Shown in pieces: positions 1 to 17,673 of a DNA stretch of 20,249 nucleotides. The position numbers were made by a program, and so were the translations under genes. The DNA is from a virus. How positions within the stretch are numbered: the first letter of the stretch is position 1; every line of letters begins with the position of its first letter. The notes under the pieces are model-generated. The model was not told the DNA's origin, did not search any database, and worked only from the letters and a program-made list of their open reading frames with translations. The stretch covers positions 1 to 20,249 of IMG/VR virus record IMGVR_UViG_3300046690_000129. One strand, written 5' to 3'.

Positions 1-943
1 ACCCGAGGGCGGGCCCGAGAAGCCCTCCCGCCAGCCCGACGCCCCCGGCCCCGGCAAGGCCCTTGGCCGTCCAGTCCATCGCCTTGGAGGCGGCGGACAT
101 TTTGGGGCTGCCTTCGACAATCTTGTCCATCAGCCGCATCTGGTCGGAGTTGTTGCCGAACGGATTGTACTTGGACGGGTCCTTCTTGAAGCTGTCGGTG
201 AAGGTCTCGAAATTCTCCGCGACCTGCTTGGTGGGGTCGGCGGCCCTGCGGGTGCCCACTTCGGCAAGGGCCTCGGCCTCTTTCGCCTTGGAGCCCGTGG
301 CCCAGAGCCTCCGGGCCTCGTCAATTTCCGTCGCCGGGTTGACCCCCGCCCTGACGCTGCTGGCGGGCATGGTCGGCTTGGCGGTGTGGATGAAGTTGTC
401 CAGTTCGTCGGCCAGTTCGCCAGCCACCCGCCGAAGGCGCGGGTTGTCGCTGGCCTTCAGGTCGCTGATCTGGGTTTGCATGTTCCGAAGCTGGGACCAT
501 GTGGTGCGCTGCCCGCTTGCCGCACCCATCTCGGCGATGGCCGGGATCAGTTCGTGGTGCATGTTCGGGTTGAACCCGGCGGCGTTGAGCCGCTGCACTA
601 CACTGTTGGCCAGCGGTGCGGTCTCGGAGGGCTTGTAGTGGATGCCCGCGTTGTCCAGCCGCTGGAAGATGTTGCCGCCCTCGATATCGAGGGTTTGCGA
701 ATTTCCGCCCCGGCTGGCGGTGCCGATATCGGTCTTGGCATTCTTGACGCCCTTGAACCGATCCAGCAGGGCTCCGAGGACGCCCGTGGTCCCCATGTTG
801 ACGCCCGCGCTGGTGAGGGCCCCGCCTGCGGCGCTCCCGAGGTCTTTCGCGTTGCGCGAAGCCCCTTCGATAGCGCCTTGGACGCCCGACTGGAGCATCT
901 GCGCGCCCCAACTCAGGGCCTTGCGCTGGGTGCCGCCAGCGGC
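1..943 (-). CDS. Internal virion protein, continuation in the -1 frame (partial, runs off the left edge)
   Basis: From about 943 down to the window start the minus strand is open in the -1 frame relative to the 144-aa reading frame. It encodes over 310 residues of ordinary phage-protein composition (early segment AAGGTQRKALSWGAQM, later PSETAPLANSVVQRLNAAGF). If translated separately, the first ATG is at 898, but that start would have no N-terminal docking motif. The sequence has a Gly/Ala-rich possibly membrane-active stretch early on, then a helical domain, then another Gly/Ala-rich segment at the window edge. That pattern fits large structural or ejection proteins found after tail genes in podoviruses. 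I do not recognise an enzymatic motif. The C terminus lies outside the window, so total length is unknown. Confidence 0.7.
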
Positions 944-1347
944 CCCGGGGTGTTCGCCTCGGCGCGCTTGATGTAGTCATCTTCGGCACCCACACCGGCA
1001 CGCCAGCGTTCGCCGATTGTCGCGGGCTTGCCGCCAGTCGCTTCGTCCAGCAGTCCGCTGCCAACCGCCATCGCGCCGCCGATAGGACGCATCACGCCCG
1101 ACGTGGCGTTGTCCTTGATCCGGTCGATATAGCCGGGTTCGGCGAGCTTGCCGCCCGGGCGCATGGGCGTGCCGTCCGGGTTCGCCTGCAACAGCGCCAT
1201 CAGCCGCTCGCGGCGGATTTCCTGCTCGCGGGTCAGCATGCGCTCACCCTTGGGGATCAGCGCCGAAAACTCGTCCGTCGGGGCCTCGGCAGCAGGTGCC
1301 GCGCCTTTCGGGATCAGGGCCGCAAACTCGTCAACGTCGTCAGCCAT
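913..1347 (-). CDS. Internal virion protein, N-terminal part (zero frame, 144 aa)
   Basis: This reading frame starts at ATG 1347, three bases after the stop of the upstream 555-aa gene. It opens with two copies of a D-E-F-x-A-L-I-P-K-G motif (about residues 6-15 and 25-34). Such DEF/DDL-x-x-LIP repeats are common at the N termini of large podovirus internal or ejection proteins, perhaps as docking peptides. The frame closes at a TGA at 913-915. The -1 frame then stays open from about 949 to the window start and continues a sensible phage protein, so I read this as the first part of one long gene split at a C4G4 run (943-951). The break may be a sequencing indel, a true mutation, or programmed -1 frameshifting. 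The protein family is inferred from its position and the motif; no catalytic domain is visible in this part. Confidence 0.7.
   Translation of the reverse strand: MADDVDEFAALIPKGAAPAAEAPTDEFSALIPKGERMLTREQEIRRERLMALLQANPDGTPMRPGGKLAEPGYIDRIKDNATSGVMRPIGGAMAVGSGLLDEATGGKPATIGERWRAGVGAEDDYIKRAEANTPGPLAAPSARP
943..949 (-). other. Candidate -1 slippery heptamer or homopolymer indel (C_CCG_GGG)
   Basis: On the minus strand the zero-frame codons at 951-943 are ACC CCG GGG. This places C CCG GGG exactly in the X_XXY_YYZ arrangement of canonical -1 frameshift sites; slipping gives CCC GGG and then enters the open -1 frame at GCC (943-941). Zero-frame translation would stop only ten codons further on. 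I see only weak downstream pairing (a GCCGC/GCGGC stem with a two-base loop), not a convincing stimulator. A one-base error in the C4G4 run would produce the same picture. Confidence 0.4.
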
Positions 1348-10155: not shown

Positions 10156-11109
10156 TCAGGTACCGCTGGCGGTGAGCCTGCCCTGCATTGCGCGATTGGA
10201 CAGCGTGAGGGCCCCCATGAAGGCGAGGTGCTTGGTCACGGCGTCCATATCGGGTGACATATCCGGCAGGTCGAGTGCCTCGAAATTCCTGCCGGAGTAG
10301 ATTTCAAACTTGAGGTACTTGGTGTTCAGGAAGTATGCCCCCGTGATACCCGTGGCAGCACCGTCGAACACCAATGGGGCGGATTTGTATTTGAGCGTCT
10401 CGAAACCGAGGGCTCCGAGCTTCGCGTCGGCGTACCGCTGGTTCTCCTGCAACCCGCTTTCATAGGTTGAGTAGATTTCGCCATCAGCCACGATCAGGTC
10501 GGGCTTCTCCGCGCCACGGATCAGCTTCATCCAGAGTGCGTTCATTGCGGCCTTGAGGGCCGGATACTGGAGGCCCGTCGCGCGCGCGACCACTTGGAAC
10601 TGGTTCTTCCAGAAGGTCCACGTTGCCGCGTCGATGCCGCCGATGAGGCCCAAGCCGTCGGGCGTGACCATGCCCTTGAGGCCCACGAAGCTCTTGGCCA
10701 CCGTGCCGTCGCCGTAGACCGCCTTGGTGATGTTGTTCTTCATGGTCGCTTCCGCGTTGTCCATCTTGCCCTCAAGCAGGTTGAGGATGCGCTCGCGGGA
10801 GCGGTTCTTGGCGAGGTCAGGGCCCGAGAGGGTCACGCTCGCGACAGCATTCGCCGGGTCGTAGTGGGCTTCCGAGATGGTCTCCTTGGTGGCGCGGGAG
10901 AGAAGCTCCGTGCCGATGTACCAAGCGAACGTCTCTTCGGCGTAGGTGAGCGGGCAAGCAATAGCGCGTCCGCCCTCGATGACCCTTACGCGGTTGCCTT
11001 CACGCAGAAGCGCCGTGACGGCATTGGAGTTGGAAATATTGTCGGCAAACTGCTTGTGGTAGTTCTGGATTGTCGTCGCAACGAGTTGCGTGACGGTGGG
11101 TTCGGCCAT
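10156..11109 (-). CDS. Major capsid protein, 317 aa
   Basis: The gene follows the scaffold by 19 bases and has a strong AGGAG ribosome-binding site six bases before ATG 11109. The sequence looks like a HK97-fold phage capsid protein: helical N-terminal arm (residues 1-35), a beta-strand segment (RVRVIEGGRAIACPLTYAEE), a spine-helix region (LEGKMDNAEATMKNNITKAV), an extended YGDGTVAKSFVGLKGMV loop characteristic of the E-loop/peripheral domain in this family, then a KPDLIVADGEIYSTYESGLQ segment and a beta-rich C terminus (GAYFLNTKYLKFEIYSG). Length, position after scaffold and the strong start signal support the assignment. Together these subunits form the icosahedral shell around the scaffold. 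Confidence 0.88.
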   Translation of the reverse strand: MAEPTVTQLVATTIQNYHKQFADNISNSNAVTALLREGNRVRVIEGGRAIACPLTYAEETFAWYIGTELLSRATKETISEAHYDPANAVASVTLSGPDLAKNRSRERILNLLEGKMDNAEATMKNNITKAVYGDGTVAKSFVGLKGMVTPDGLGLIGGIDAATWTFWKNQFQVVARATGLQYPALKAAMNALWMKLIRGAEKPDLIVADGEIYSTYESGLQENQRYADAKLGALGFETLKYKSAPLVFDGAATGITGAYFLNTKYLKFEIYSGRNFEALDLPDMSPDMDAVTKHLAFMGALTLSNRAMQGRLTASGT

Positions 11110-12319: not shown

Positions 12320-12548
12320 TTTGGGCTTTCCTGAAGGAGGCGGGGGTATCCCGAGGATCGTAACTGCCCGAGTTGTGCAGGTCCTTGTCGCGCTGGCGGT
12401 GCGAGCTTATCGGCGCGTCATTGATCGGGGAGGCGTAGGTTTGAAATGACTGCACTGACGGTGCAGGAAGGTCACTGGCCGCGTGGTTGGACGCGGGCAG
12501 GTATTTCTTTTCGATCAGGCGGCCCTGATACATCACCCAGACGGGCAT
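12267..12548 (-). CDS. Small phage protein with MPVWVM...RLIEK start, 93 aa
   Basis: ATG 12548 overlaps the stop of the 81-aa gene (TGATG) and has GGAGAGGG upstream. A longer in-frame extension exists but lacks its own start signal. The pattern MPVWVMYQGRLIEKK, then SPINDAPISSHRQRDKDLH, then PASFRKAQ matches from memory a frequent phage protein with MPxxVMRDGxLVEK, a middle part with xxSDxxP..H..DG.., and a SKSxFR end. Such proteins commonly lie between portal and scaffold genes; their role is not known to me. The last ~17 codons overlap the scaffold start, so the C terminus (KAQNVRHARQRRSADPSRYS) is constrained by the scaffold N terminus. Confidence 0.75.
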   Translation of the reverse strand: MPVWVMYQGRLIEKKYLPASNHAASDLPAPSVQSFQTYASPINDAPISSHRQRDKDLHNSGSYDPRDTPASFRKAQNVRHARQRRSADPSRYS

Positions 12549-12793
12549 CAGCCCTCTCCGTGATCCATGATTGCCGCCGAGGCCCACATCACGGCCTCGT
12601 CCAGTTTGGTGAAGGCGAGCGCCATCCGGCGGTCGCCGGGCCTTGAGCCCATCGTCGTGCCGTCCAACTCGTGAAGGGCGCTGCGGAAGATCACCGCGAC
12701 GTCATCGAGCCGCTTGAGCCGCTGGGTCACGACCGGCTTCAGCACGAAGCCGGTCTTGGGGTCCACCGGCACGCCCAGACCCGGAAGGGACAT
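12548..12793 (-). CDS. Acb2/Tad1 hairpin-domain-like small protein, 81 aa
   Basis: ATG 12793 lies 29 bases after the stop of the 116-aa gene; an in-frame upstream extension to 13003 would run through that gene and is rejected. No strong ribosome-binding site is seen immediately upstream. The second half, RPGDRRMALAFTKLDEAVMW followed by ASAAIMDHG (residues 51-79), closely resembles the helical hairpin ending of Acb2/Tad1-domain proteins (family pattern from memory: P-G-R-E-x-S-L-A-x-T-x-L-E-E-A-x-x-W-A-N-A-x-I). Acb2 and Tad1 bind cyclic nucleotide signals made by CBASS or Thoeris defence and keep them from activating effectors. The assignment rests on this C-terminal motif; whether the ligand-binding residues are kept cannot be judged here. 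It sits unexpectedly among capsid genes. Confidence 0.6.
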   Translation of the reverse strand: MSLPGLGVPVDPKTGFVLKPVVTQRLKRLDDVAVIFRSALHELDGTTMGSRPGDRRMALAFTKLDEAVMWASAAIMDHGEG

Positions 12794-13465: not shown

Positions 13466-15982
13466 TTACATCGGAGGTGGTCCGCCCATCCCGGGCGGTG
13501 GCGCTTGCGGTTGTGGCATTTTTGGCGGGCCCTTGCCATTCGCGCCACGGCTGGGGCCCGGCGGCGGCGGCCCGGCCCCCGGCGGCGGGGCCCCGGGAGG
13601 TGGCGGCGGCGGCGGGGGCCGCATCATCGCACCCGTCGGGTCCATCTGCATGTACGCGCCCAGCATCTCCTGATAGCCGTCGATGAGGTCGATGACGCCC
13701 CGGCTGTGACGCACGGGGTGCAGCAGCATCTTAATCATCTCAAGCGAGAGATTGATAATCATCGGCGGCGGAAGGATGCCTGTCTGAAGAAGGCCTTGAG
13801 CAGCGGTGAGGGTTCCTCCCACCACTTGCATGATCTGGGCGTTGGCTTCTTTTTCCGTGGCTTCATCGACTTCGACCGTGCTGTCGGTTTCGATGTCGAT
13901 GGCGCAGAAACGCGTGAACTCATTGCGCAGTATCTCCATGACTTCAGGCGTGCAGTTCTCGCCGGTCATCTTGGTGAGGGTATCAGCGTCGAAGTTCTTG
14001 GCGATGATATCGCCCTTCAACCGCATCAGATCGCGGACGAAGTTTCCGACGCTGGTCTTGACGCCCTGCATGCGGCCCGAACCGACAGTGCCTTTCATGC
14101 GCTGCGCGGTGGCGGTTTCGTAAGGGTTGGTCGCGCCCCTGATGATATCGGCGATGCCGATGATCTCGTAGATCGCGTTCTTCTGCTGGTCGCGCGAGTG
14201 GTAAAGCTCCTTCAGCGCGTTGACCCATTCGAGGATCGGGACGAGCCAGATATGATTTTGCAAACCGCCTGACATAAGATCAACGCCGTCAACAGGCAGC
14301 AGCTTGCCGTCATCAGCAGTAAGAAGGTTCGCGATATCCTTGTTGGCCGCGTTGTATCCGCCACGAACCTTGATCTTTTCGGTGAGGTCGCTGATCCGCT
14401 TGGAAGTGTCATCGAGGTCCGCCGCGAGATGTGCATAGAGATCGAAGAAAGCCTTCGGGATCATGCTGTCGGTTGTGACGACGGCGCAAATCGGTTTTGG
14501 GATCGGGTAGAAGCCCTGAAGGCCCAGCACGTCAGGCTCAACGCGCAGCACGCAGCCGCCGCCTTCCCTCACGAGCCAGATGATCTCGCGCGTGGCGCGG
14601 GTCCATATTTCCCAGACCATCGCCTTTCTGACGACGCTATCCAGCTTGCCTGCTGTCTTGGGGCTGGGACCGCCGCCGACAGGGCTCTTGGCGGCGCTCT
14701 CCTCGGTCCACTTGAGAAGCTCTGAGACCTTCCCCGCCTTCTTGTACTCTTGCAGCTTCTCGCTCTCGCCGAACTCGTCCAGCAGGGCCTTTTCCGAGAA
14801 CAGGTGGCGGAACGCGACCCACTCGACGTCACCATGCTGACGGACGGGATCAATAAGGATATCTTCCCAGAACACATATTCGTCGTCCACGGTCTCCCAG
14901 ACCTTGGCGTCCTTGGTCTGGGGCTCGCCCGTGATCGGGTGCGCAAGAGGCCCGCCCATCACCGGGTCCTCGACCGGGACCGCCTTGATGACCGGCTTCC
15001 AGCGCACGCGGCAGGTGCCGCGACCGGGGAGAAGCATGTCTCTTACGGCAGCCTTCACCGCTTCGTGGCTGGCCTCGTCGCCGACGACGATCTCAAGCGC
15101 CTTCTCCATCACGGCAGCGGCAGTCTCGATATCCTGCTGACGCGGCATGCCCGGGGGCATGGGCGCGGGCTGCGGCACCGTCTGGGGCCCGACAGGCTGT
15201 TGCGGCGGCATGGGGCCCGGCGGCATGCCGGGCGGCGGCGGGGGCTCGGGCCCCAAGCCGGTCATGCCCGGGGGCGGCATCCCGGGAGGTCCACCGGCAG
15301 GCGACGGCGGTGGACCCCCGGGGCCCGGTGGCGGCCCGGGGGGTGCCGGGGGCTGGTTGCCATCGGGAGCGGCAATAGGAACGCCGGGCGCGGGCTGCGC
15401 CGTGACGGGTCCTGCGGGGGCCCCGGCCTGAGGCGGTCCCCCGGGCGGCAGTGTCGGCGGCGCGGGAGGGCCTCCGGGACCCAACGGCGTGCCCGGTGCG
15501 CCCGGGGGAGCCATCCCCGGAGGGATGCCCATTTCAGGTGGACCGCCCATAATCATCGGCATGGGCGGCGGTGGAGCGGGAACGGCGGATTTCTTGACGA
15601 AGCGGGACTTAACTACGGGATCGGGCGGCTTGGAGTAAGCGGCAGGCAGCATCACCTCGGTATTGGCGTAAAGCACGTTGAAGTGGCTGGAATTTCTGGG
15701 GCCCGTGTAGGCGCTGGTCTTGCCGCTTTTGGTGGACTTGGGGCGGGAGATCGGGATATCGCCCCGGTACATCTGGACGATCTCACGACCGCGTGTACGC
15801 CAGTCCCTTTCGGCACGCTCGCAGTCCGCTAAGGCCTGTTCCCAGAAGGAGGTATCCACCTCCTTGTCGCCGCTGGCGGCGAGTGCAACGTCCGGGCGGT
15901 CAGGGTTCTGGCCCTCGGGGCTCCTGACCTGAGCCGCCTGCGGCGGGGCCTCTTCGCCTTTGGTGAAGCTGGTCGCCGCCAT
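13466..15982 (-). CDS. Portal protein (P22 gp1-like) with long Pro/Gly-rich insertion, 838 aa
   Basis: The dodecameric portal is the channel through which DNA enters the capsid. The start of the chain has the typical WRTRGREIVQMYRGD helix (61-75) and FNVLYANTEVMLPAAYSKPP (101-120). After the insertion, portal sequence resumes with AVMEKALEIVVGDEASHEAV and MLLPGRGTCRVRWKP, then WEDILIDP, HLFSEKALLDEFGESEK, YHSRDQQKNAIYEIIGIADI with a GATNPYETATAQRMKG motif, ending with a C-terminal helix. Residues ~133-281 (15140-15586) are an almost pure Pro/Gly/Met/Ala stretch, and residues ~795-838 are again Pro-rich with eight consecutive prolines. The long insertion is unusual for a portal. ATG 15982 follows six bases after the 75-aa gene stop; no clear ribosome-binding site is seen there. 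Confidence 0.88.
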   Translation of the reverse strand: MAATSFTKGEEAPPQAAQVRSPEGQNPDRPDVALAASGDKEVDTSFWEQALADCERAERDWRTRGREIVQMYRGDIPISRPKSTKSGKTSAYTGPRNSSHFNVLYANTEVMLPAAYSKPPDPVVKSRFVKKSAVPAPPPPMPMIMGGPPEMGIPPGMAPPGAPGTPLGPGGPPAPPTLPPGGPPQAGAPAGPVTAQPAPGVPIAAPDGNQPPAPPGPPPGPGGPPPSPAGGPPGMPPPGMTGLGPEPPPPPGMPPGPMPPQQPVGPQTVPQPAPMPPGMPRQQDIETAAAVMEKALEIVVGDEASHEAVKAAVRDMLLPGRGTCRVRWKPVIKAVPVEDPVMGGPLAHPITGEPQTKDAKVWETVDDEYVFWEDILIDPVRQHGDVEWVAFRHLFSEKALLDEFGESEKLQEYKKAGKVSELLKWTEESAAKSPVGGGPSPKTAGKLDSVVRKAMVWEIWTRATREIIWLVREGGGCVLRVEPDVLGLQGFYPIPKPICAVVTTDSMIPKAFFDLYAHLAADLDDTSKRISDLTEKIKVRGGYNAANKDIANLLTADDGKLLPVDGVDLMSGGLQNHIWLVPILEWVNALKELYHSRDQQKNAIYEIIGIADIIRGATNPYETATAQRMKGTVGSGRMQGVKTSVGNFVRDLMRLKGDIIAKNFDADTLTKMTGENCTPEVMEILRNEFTRFCAIDIETDSTVEVDEATEKEANAQIMQVVGGTLTAAQGLLQTGILPPPMIINLSLEMIKMLLHPVRHSRGVIDLIDGYQEMLGAYMQMDPTGAMMRPPPPPPPPGAPPPGAGPPPPGPSRGANGKGPPKMPQPQAPPPGMGGPPPM

Positions 15983-15988
15983 TGGAGG

Positions 15989-16216
15989 TTACTTTTTGGT
16001 TGTCGCGGCTTTCACCGCCCACATGGCGGCCTCTTCGTAGGCGGTCTGGGCGAGGGACGCGAGACGGGGCTCGACCTGCTTCAGGTCCTCGCACAGATCA
16101 ATCAGATCGGCGGTGTACCGCTTGAGCTTATCAACGACGTTCTCGCCGCTGGGGTTGAAGCTCTCCCTGACGCGGTGCGCGCCAATGGAGCCCTGTGTCT
16201 GGCCGACATCGCCCAT
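15989..16216 (-). CDS. Acb2/Tad1-like anti-defence candidate (cyclic-nucleotide sponge), 75 aa
   Basis: ATG 16216 is preferred because AAGGGG lies about six bases upstream; an alternative GTG at 16261 would overlap the terminase stop (GTGA) and add 15 residues. The protein contains RVRESFNPSGENVVDKLKRY (residues 15-34), a helix TADLIDLCEDLK, then RLASLAQTAYEEAAMWAVKA (51-70) and a basic end. The FNPSG ... VDxxKxxxAxLI ... AxxxxExAAMWAVKAxT pattern matches from memory the short Acb2-type (T4 Vs.4-like) proteins that sequester cyclic di- and trinucleotides and block CBASS. This is the second such candidate in the window. It lies between the large terminase and portal genes. Ligand binding is inferred, not shown. 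Confidence 0.63.
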   Translation of the reverse strand: MGDVGQTQGSIGAHRVRESFNPSGENVVDKLKRYTADLIDLCEDLKQVEPRLASLAQTAYEEAAMWAVKAATTKK

Positions 16217-16257
16217 TGTTCGCCCCTTGTTCGCGATTTTTCCCTGATTTGCCTTTA

Positions 16258-17673
16258 TCACGCGTGGTCGAGTTCGTCCAAGCGGAAAGCATTGGAGACG
16301 CGCAGCGGGTCGAGGTCCTCGCTTGTTTCGAGGCGGGCCCCGAACGGGCGGGACATGCAGGCGTAGCGGATATCATCGACCGCATGGTCCTCGCCTTCGG
16401 TGTCGAGGTCCTCGGGGCGGTTCTCGTCGTGCTGCTGCATCGGCAGCGTCCTGATGGCGTCCTTGCAGTGATCGACAAAGAAGATCATCGGGTCGCCGTC
16501 GTCGTCGCCCTTGAGACGCCAGCGCAACTGATCCCATCCACCCATTCGTTTGGCGGTAGAGACACGAGAGTTGTCAGCGCGGCGGAAATAGACACCCTGT
16601 CGCGCAAAGGTCTCTCCAATCGAAGGTCCACTGACCACTTGGAAGGCTGACGGGTCGAGTATCCCGTAAGCAATTGGTTCGCGAAAGCCTCGGCCATCGG
16701 TCTCTCTCCGAACTACTTCTTTCGCGACAGCATCCGCAGGGAGCTGTAACCCTTTGTTGGGGCCACTTGAGCCGTACCATTCGCGGTAGCGGATGATGGA
16801 GTTCTTCGGCAGTCTCTTCTTGTCATGGATCATATCGTCCTGAACCACAGCCCACCAGCCGATGGAGAAGGGGGAAGCACTTCCCCAGTCCATGCTGCGG
16901 AAACGCGTCCAGTGCAGTGGTATGCGGGGCGGGGTTATCACATGCCTGTTCGGGTCGAACTCCGGGAAGAACGCGCCCTCGATGATATCCCAGTTACCAT
17001 CGAGCCAAGCCTTGACCAAGGCGGCGCTGCCCGAGGCCCTGAGGCGGTTGATATAGCCGGGGTCGTTATTCAGCAGGCTCGGGTTATCCGTGATCTTTGC
17101 GGGGATGAAAATTCGTATAAGGCCCGTCTCGGCGTCTTTCACCGGGCGATACGGACCATTGTCGATGACCCATGATTTAACCCAGTGATGCCCCGGGCCC
17201 CCGGGATTGCAGGTGGCCCTCAACTGGCATCTGGCTCCCGAGGTGGTTCTCAGTGTCGCAAAAAGCCGGAAAATGCCGGTTGGCGAGGCGTATTGCGTCA
17301 ATTCCTCCACATACACCCGCGTTAAACTCCACCCCTGATAGTTCATCGCGTCGGTGTCGTTCTCCAGATACGCCATGTGAAAAACCGCACCATTCCTGAA
17401 GCGAAACTGCTTCTCCTTGTCCTTCCATTCGGCAGCGTCTCCGTACATTTGTCTTGCGACGTCGATGGTGTCCTTCAAATCCTCGCGTGAGCGCCTGAGC
17501 ATCAGGCCCTTTGCGGCGGGGCCCCAGTCCTCGGAGTGACACCAGAACTCTCCCAAGGCCGCGAAGCTCTTACCGCCGCCCCGGGCCCCGCCATAAACGA
17601 CGATATCGGCAGGGCAGGTCAGAAAGTGGTGCTGGGGGCCCGGCTGGGGCTTGAAGCCCGTGATGATCTTCAT
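16258..17673 (-). CDS. terL: Terminase large subunit (packaging ATPase/nuclease), 471 aa
   Basis: The N-terminal ATPase has Walker A GGARGGGKS (28-36), Walker B RVYVEE (119-124) and a coupling motif with TCNPGG (154-159). The C-terminal RNase H-fold nuclease has metal-binding acidic residues in MDWGS (Asp262), GILDPSAF (Asp340) and HAVDDIRYA (Asp433/Asp434). All key motifs are present and the length is normal. The protein cuts concatemeric phage DNA and pumps it into the procapsid through the portal, guided by the small subunit. ATG 17673 overlaps the small-terminase stop (ATGA). The next gene, the 75-aa protein, follows after its stop at 16258. Codon choice here resembles the rest of the structural module and differs from the small-terminase gene. 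Confidence 0.96.
   Translation of the reverse strand: MKIITGFKPQPGPQHHFLTCPADIVVYGGARGGGKSFAALGEFWCHSEDWGPAAKGLMLRRSREDLKDTIDVARQMYGDAAEWKDKEKQFRFRNGAVFHMAYLENDTDAMNYQGWSLTRVYVEELTQYASPTGIFRLFATLRTTSGARCQLRATCNPGGPGHHWVKSWVIDNGPYRPVKDAETGLIRIFIPAKITDNPSLLNNDPGYINRLRASGSAALVKAWLDGNWDIIEGAFFPEFDPNRHVITPPRIPLHWTRFRSMDWGSASPFSIGWWAVVQDDMIHDKKRLPKNSIIRYREWYGSSGPNKGLQLPADAVAKEVVRRETDGRGFREPIAYGILDPSAFQVVSGPSIGETFARQGVYFRRADNSRVSTAKRMGGWDQLRWRLKGDDDGDPMIFFVDHCKDAIRTLPMQQHDENRPEDLDTEGEDHAVDDIRYACMSRPFGARLETSEDLDPLRVSNAFRLDELDHA

Follow-up and report, generated by a model that had tools for sequence, protein, structure and literature searches.

Which role does the small gene wedged between the terminase and portal genes of an uncultured phage play, and does a product of this kind belong among late virion genes? 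The window, i.e. the entire stretch of DNA analyzed here, is a 20,249-bp IMG/VR fragment whose minus strand carries, in this order, terL, the gene in question (acbA), the portal gene, small ORFs, a further small gene (acbB), a putative scaffold gene and the major capsid gene. The features to which we refer are the following:

16258..17673, minus strand: terL, large terminase subunit, upstream neighbor of acbA (PF03237, 44.3 bits; PHROG 979)
16223..16228, minus strand: AAGGGG, likely ribosome-binding site of acbA, six bases before the ATG (from the sequence)
15989..16216 including the stop, minus strand: acbA, 75-aa Acb2/Tad1-hairpin protein, probable cyclic-oligonucleotide sponge (PF24729, PHROG 717, AF2 hairpin, dN/dS)
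13466..15982, minus strand: portal protein, downstream neighbor of acbA (PHROG 12082, E 2.6e-118)
12548..12793, minus strand: acbB, second, divergent Acb2/Tad1-hairpin protein of 81 aa (PF24729, 11 kin loci, AF2 hairpin)
10156–11109, minus strand: major capsid gene

An earlier sequence-only reading had placed an Acb2-like sponge candidate between terL and portal, and the terL–acb–portal order on the minus strand is confirmed here, as is the presence on that strand of a 75-aa ORF with the motifs FNPSGENVVDKLK and EEAAMWAVKA. With respect to the proposed boundaries, the end at 15989 stands, whereas 16261 is the start of a GTG-initiated form of 90 aa, which overlaps the stop of terL; the ATG of the 75-aa form lies at 16216. 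We favor the 75-aa form over the longer one, which is unsupported, because conservation in the alignment of relatives starts at around residue 9 of the 75-aa form and because AAGGGG precedes its ATG by six bases.

As the ORF is short and its surroundings are GC-rich and full of overlapping frames, and as its single-sequence similarity to the solved Vs.4 is weak, it might be spurious or not be expressed as protein. However, the gene possesses its own ribosome-binding site, 206 relatives and a PF24729 match (E 3e-11), and the median dN/dS of its family amounts to 0.095 (~0.1; 499 pairs with unsaturated dS). acbA is under purifying selection, which makes a spurious ORF very unlikely, and we rejected this explanation as having next to no chance of being correct.

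The Pfam profile PF24729 (Acb2/Tad1 hairpin) matched acbA with an E-value of 3.1e-11 and 43.7 bits (curated cut-off, 27), while 0 of 14 control genomes yielded a match above the cut-off; the match is therefore beyond chance. The best PHROG of acbA was 717, albeit weakly (E 0.001). T4 Vs.4 and PaP2 Acb2 likewise had their best match in this group, via which Jenson et al. had collected and defined Vs.4 homologs (PMC10097602). Profile–profile comparison revealed similarity of acbA to Vs.4 relatives and to the Acb2-type proteins of PaP2 and Aussie, and an HMM made from Vs.4/Acb2-type proteins retrieved acbA-type proteins. Searches of PDB sequences returned Vs.4 only at E 1 (phmmer) or E 0.06 (profile search), in both cases amid unrelated proteins; an NCBIfam search with acbA gave no match, and no DNA-level relative was found among cultured phages. 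Judged by profile, acbA adds a new member to the Acb2/Tad1-hairpin family, which was already known along with its mechanism.

The AlphaFold (AF2) model of acbA (pLDDT 88) features a short N-terminal helix (residues 11–15) and a long hairpin of two antiparallel helices (26–45 and 50–72). The 75-aa model is all-helical, with no strand and hence none of the N-terminal β-sheet of Tad1 (Thoeris anti-defence 1), in which such a sheet precedes the helical hairpin (PMC12043709); what acbA has in common with Tad1 is the C-terminal hairpin domain to which the name of PF24729 refers. Among viral folds, the two top-ranking matches of the model both bore the name Acb2/Tad1 hairpin protein. Against the PDB, the Acb2 structures 7uq2 (Z 5.3) and 8h2j (Z 4.3) ranked among unrelated hairpins of similar Z, and in Foldseek and VIA-align comparisons Acb2 entries were interspersed with unrelated rows, i.e. 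PDB comparison does not discriminate the helical hairpin, because many unrelated hairpins score alike. The Acb2-like identity put forward earlier is borne out by the PF24729 match over the curated cut-off, PHROG 717, the profile–profile similarity and the names of the viral fold matches.

T4 Acb2 (Vs.4; PDB 7UQ2) resembles acbA in PF24729 and PHROG 717 membership, hairpin fold, hexamer-interface residues and Lys/Arg ligand contacts, and its YKPH motif is the counterpart of FNPS in acbA. The two proteins differ in that acbA is only ~21% identical and has a shorter inter-helix loop; moreover, the T4 gene adjoins regB rather than lying in a packaging operon. Pseudomonas phage PaP2 Acb2 (PDB 8H2J, 8H2X), of the same Pfam family and PHROG, is 12% identical to acbA in the alignment, its K26 and R67 aligning with acbA K32 and R51; its Tyr11 is not clearly kept in acbA, and its gene forms the end of an early-strand block. 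Closer homologs (43–46% identity), annotated only as hypothetical, are encoded by Enterobacter phage EcP1 (gp26), Flavobacterium FCV-1, elemoA and Pasteurella Pmp11; they match acbA in length and FNPS motif, but are not located between terL and portal.

Vs.4 contacts cGAMP via Y8, H11, K23, R79 and F82, and requires L29, A66, A73 and A77 to form its hexamer (PMC10097602). All four hexamer residues are kept in acbA (L38, A56, A63 and A67) and are invariant or nearly so. The ligand contacts, whose absence from an alignment would by the sequence-only reading refute the assignment, gave a split picture: the basic residues K23 and R79 have counterparts in K32 and K69, neither of which varies among 21 relatives, whereas the F82 column is occupied by T72, with loss of the aromatic, and the Tyr8 column depends on the alignment register. 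In Pfam coordinates, acbA P22 equals profile position 4, which places F20 at the Y8/Y11 column (YKPH vs. FNPS), while a gapless alignment extended back from K32 puts R17 at the Tyr8 column, with F20 three residues off. We prefer the former because F20, but not R17, is invariant in the acbA subfamily and present in EcP1, Pmp11, FCV-1 and elemoA; the stacking Tyr8 is thus probably replaced by Phe, the register being uncertain. R51 and T58 are likewise invariant in the 21 relatives, and R51 may be a trinucleotide-site contact. As far as alignment can tell, acbA retains part of the dinucleotide pocket, and its preferred ligand could therefore differ.

With regard to the ligand, acbA might sequester something other than dinucleotides, namely cyclic trinucleotides bound at the distal trimer site or a Thoeris-type ADP-ribose signal. 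In line with this, the dinucleotide pocket is altered at T72 and at the shifted or replaced Tyr8, R51 and T58 do not vary, and Acb2 possesses a trinucleotide site apart from its dinucleotide site (PMC12043709). Yet, acbA still has K32, K69 and the invariant aromatic F20, and an aromatic at the F82 column is likewise missing from PaP2 Acb2, which is proven to bind dinucleotides. We consider such a changed ligand a credible proposal, though one that would sooner prove wrong than right; as it is a version of the sponge reading and overlaps it, their likelihoods are not expected to sum to one.

Relatives of acbA are encoded on 206 IMG/VR stretches, 80 of which (~65–87% identity) were kept for comparison. 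The window's terL is clearly common only to three of these loci (L002, L003 and L028), with a recognizable portal in a few others; the window's capsid and portal proteins are closest to the Mx8 type (Stenotrophomonas BUCT555, Bradyrhizobium ppBjS10J-1, Myxococcus Mx8). As a separate observation, residues ~135–285 of the portal protein (13466–15982, minus strand) form a long Pro/Gly-rich insert, and portal homology in kin begins only after residue ~210–280. Packaging/head modules house at least 39 of the 80 acb loci (29 of 59 distinct proteins), as judged with a limited set of seed proteins; 37 of the 80 loci remained without label. Seed labels reflect homology to the window's proteins plus sequence reading rather than a family scan of each neighbor. 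The gene occurred between terL and portal (4 loci), between terS and terL (10), upstream of terL (10), between capsid and neck genes (9), elsewhere close to the capsid gene (6) or beside a RecD-like helicase (4). Its location in a late operon had been called odd for a presumed early-acting protein; the recurrence in packaging/head modules, at several junctions, contradicts this view. Among cultured phages, the Pmp11 homolog lies directly upstream of terS and that of Aussie in a head–tail connector block, whereas the EcP1, FCV-1 and elemoA homologs reside in non-structural (early) or replication regions.

Comparison of close kin revealed the terL–portal junction to hold acbA in L002, L003 and L028, to be nearly empty (36–43 bp) in L083, L091 and L093, and to be filled by other small ORFs in L085, L087, L088, L089, L090 and L092. 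L002 and L091 have common sequence just after the terL stop. The copy nearest to the window's acbA was not one of the kin's but the one in L001, whose neighboring capsid gene is different (a 180-base comparison of modest weight). acbA looks like mobile accessory cargo, exchangeable at this junction and carried by mostly unrelated phages. Two further observations concern the junction itself: GGATTATAGTCCCGACC-like sequence follows the terL stop in L002, L028, L091 and partly L083, irrespective of whether acb is present, and the empty junctions, Pro-rich ORF and other small ORFs across L083, L085 and L087–L093 may point to accessory genes.

The recurrence of acb beside terL, terS, portal or capsid genes, along with its strong conservation, would also suit a small packaging or head-assembly protein acting on the terminase–portal machine, with a merely coincidental hairpin and no role in defense. 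However, close kin whose operons are otherwise intact lack the gene at this junction; the gene occurs in phages whose terminases and capsids are unrelated, has homologs in early or replication regions of cultured phages, and belongs to a Pfam family and PHROG that include proven sponges. We rejected a virion-assembly role on grounds of this absence, spread and family content, and regard it as improbable.

The best explanation is that acbA acts as a cyclic-nucleotide sponge, which we consider quite probable on the strength of the profile, fold and residue evidence, of the accessory behavior of the gene and of the homologs in early or replication regions. As a small protein of the Acb2 (T4 Vs.4) family with a helical-hairpin fold, it would by homology assemble into a hexamer that tightly binds, without degrading, the cyclic-oligonucleotide alarm signals of host CBASS or related systems, such that the suicide effector would stay untriggered before burst. 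Counting against a sponge, a SMODS cyclase domain was present in only 2 of 13 genomes with acb relatives, although these are few genomes and lack a background rate. The gene would be accessory cargo in the terL–portal junction, probably made late and from one mRNA with the packaging and head genes: we infer that it is likely transcribed together with late genes because it has its own ribosome-binding site and no recognizable promoter, a promoter scan being uninformative in this GC-rich phage. As mutations of the major capsid gene favor the escape of acb2-deleted phage from CBASS (PMC10419184), this defense may be provoked by late products. Late expression of acbA need not be odd if late structural products provoke CBASS and the sponge acts stoichiometrically, i.e. 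by quantity.

A second PF24729 gene, acbB (12548–12793), had gone unmentioned in the earlier reading. Its product scored 32.1 bits against PF24729 (cut-off, 27), exceeded the cut-off in all seven kin records tested, and was modeled by AF2 as a hairpin (pLDDT 83). In each of 11 loci, as far as contigs reach, its neighbors were those of the window, with a small ORF on one side and the scaffold gene on the other, and acbB appears fixed in the close kin lineage; PF24729 was not found in six Mx8-like cultured phages. The last helix retains the A-x-T, EA and WA positions, while the R79 column holds Ala, the K23 column is variable (Asp in the window) and no N-terminal aromatic is conserved. In terms of sequence, acbB has mostly lost the dinucleotide-pocket residues. 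Conceivably, fixed acbB, with its oligomer interface kept and its dinucleotide pocket lost, and exchangeable acbA constitute a two-sponge or mixed-oligomer set for different alarm signals, made when capsid products trigger defense, but this is speculative and rather unlikely.

These findings extend the Acb2/Tad1-hairpin family to uncultured phages with Mx8-like heads and delineate a short, conserved FNPS subfamily that recurs across unrelated phages and frequently sits in late packaging/head modules. What is informative here is that the gene keeps turning up in late modules, that the junction is open to exchange and that the phage has a second hairpin gene. Should these proteins be sponges, phages would seem to match the timing of signal sequestration to that of the late products presumed to trigger CBASS, and the terL–portal gap would be a place to seek other small anti-defense genes.

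Two minor observations concern the relatives and the far end of the window. Seven contigs of one Rhodobacteraceae MAG (L119–L125) carry acb relatives whose match statistics are identical, which suggests that related prophages are repeated. At 321–1347 (minus strand), the ORFs 913–1347 and 321–1064 overlap in different frames and could represent one virion gene split by a frameshift or an assembly error.
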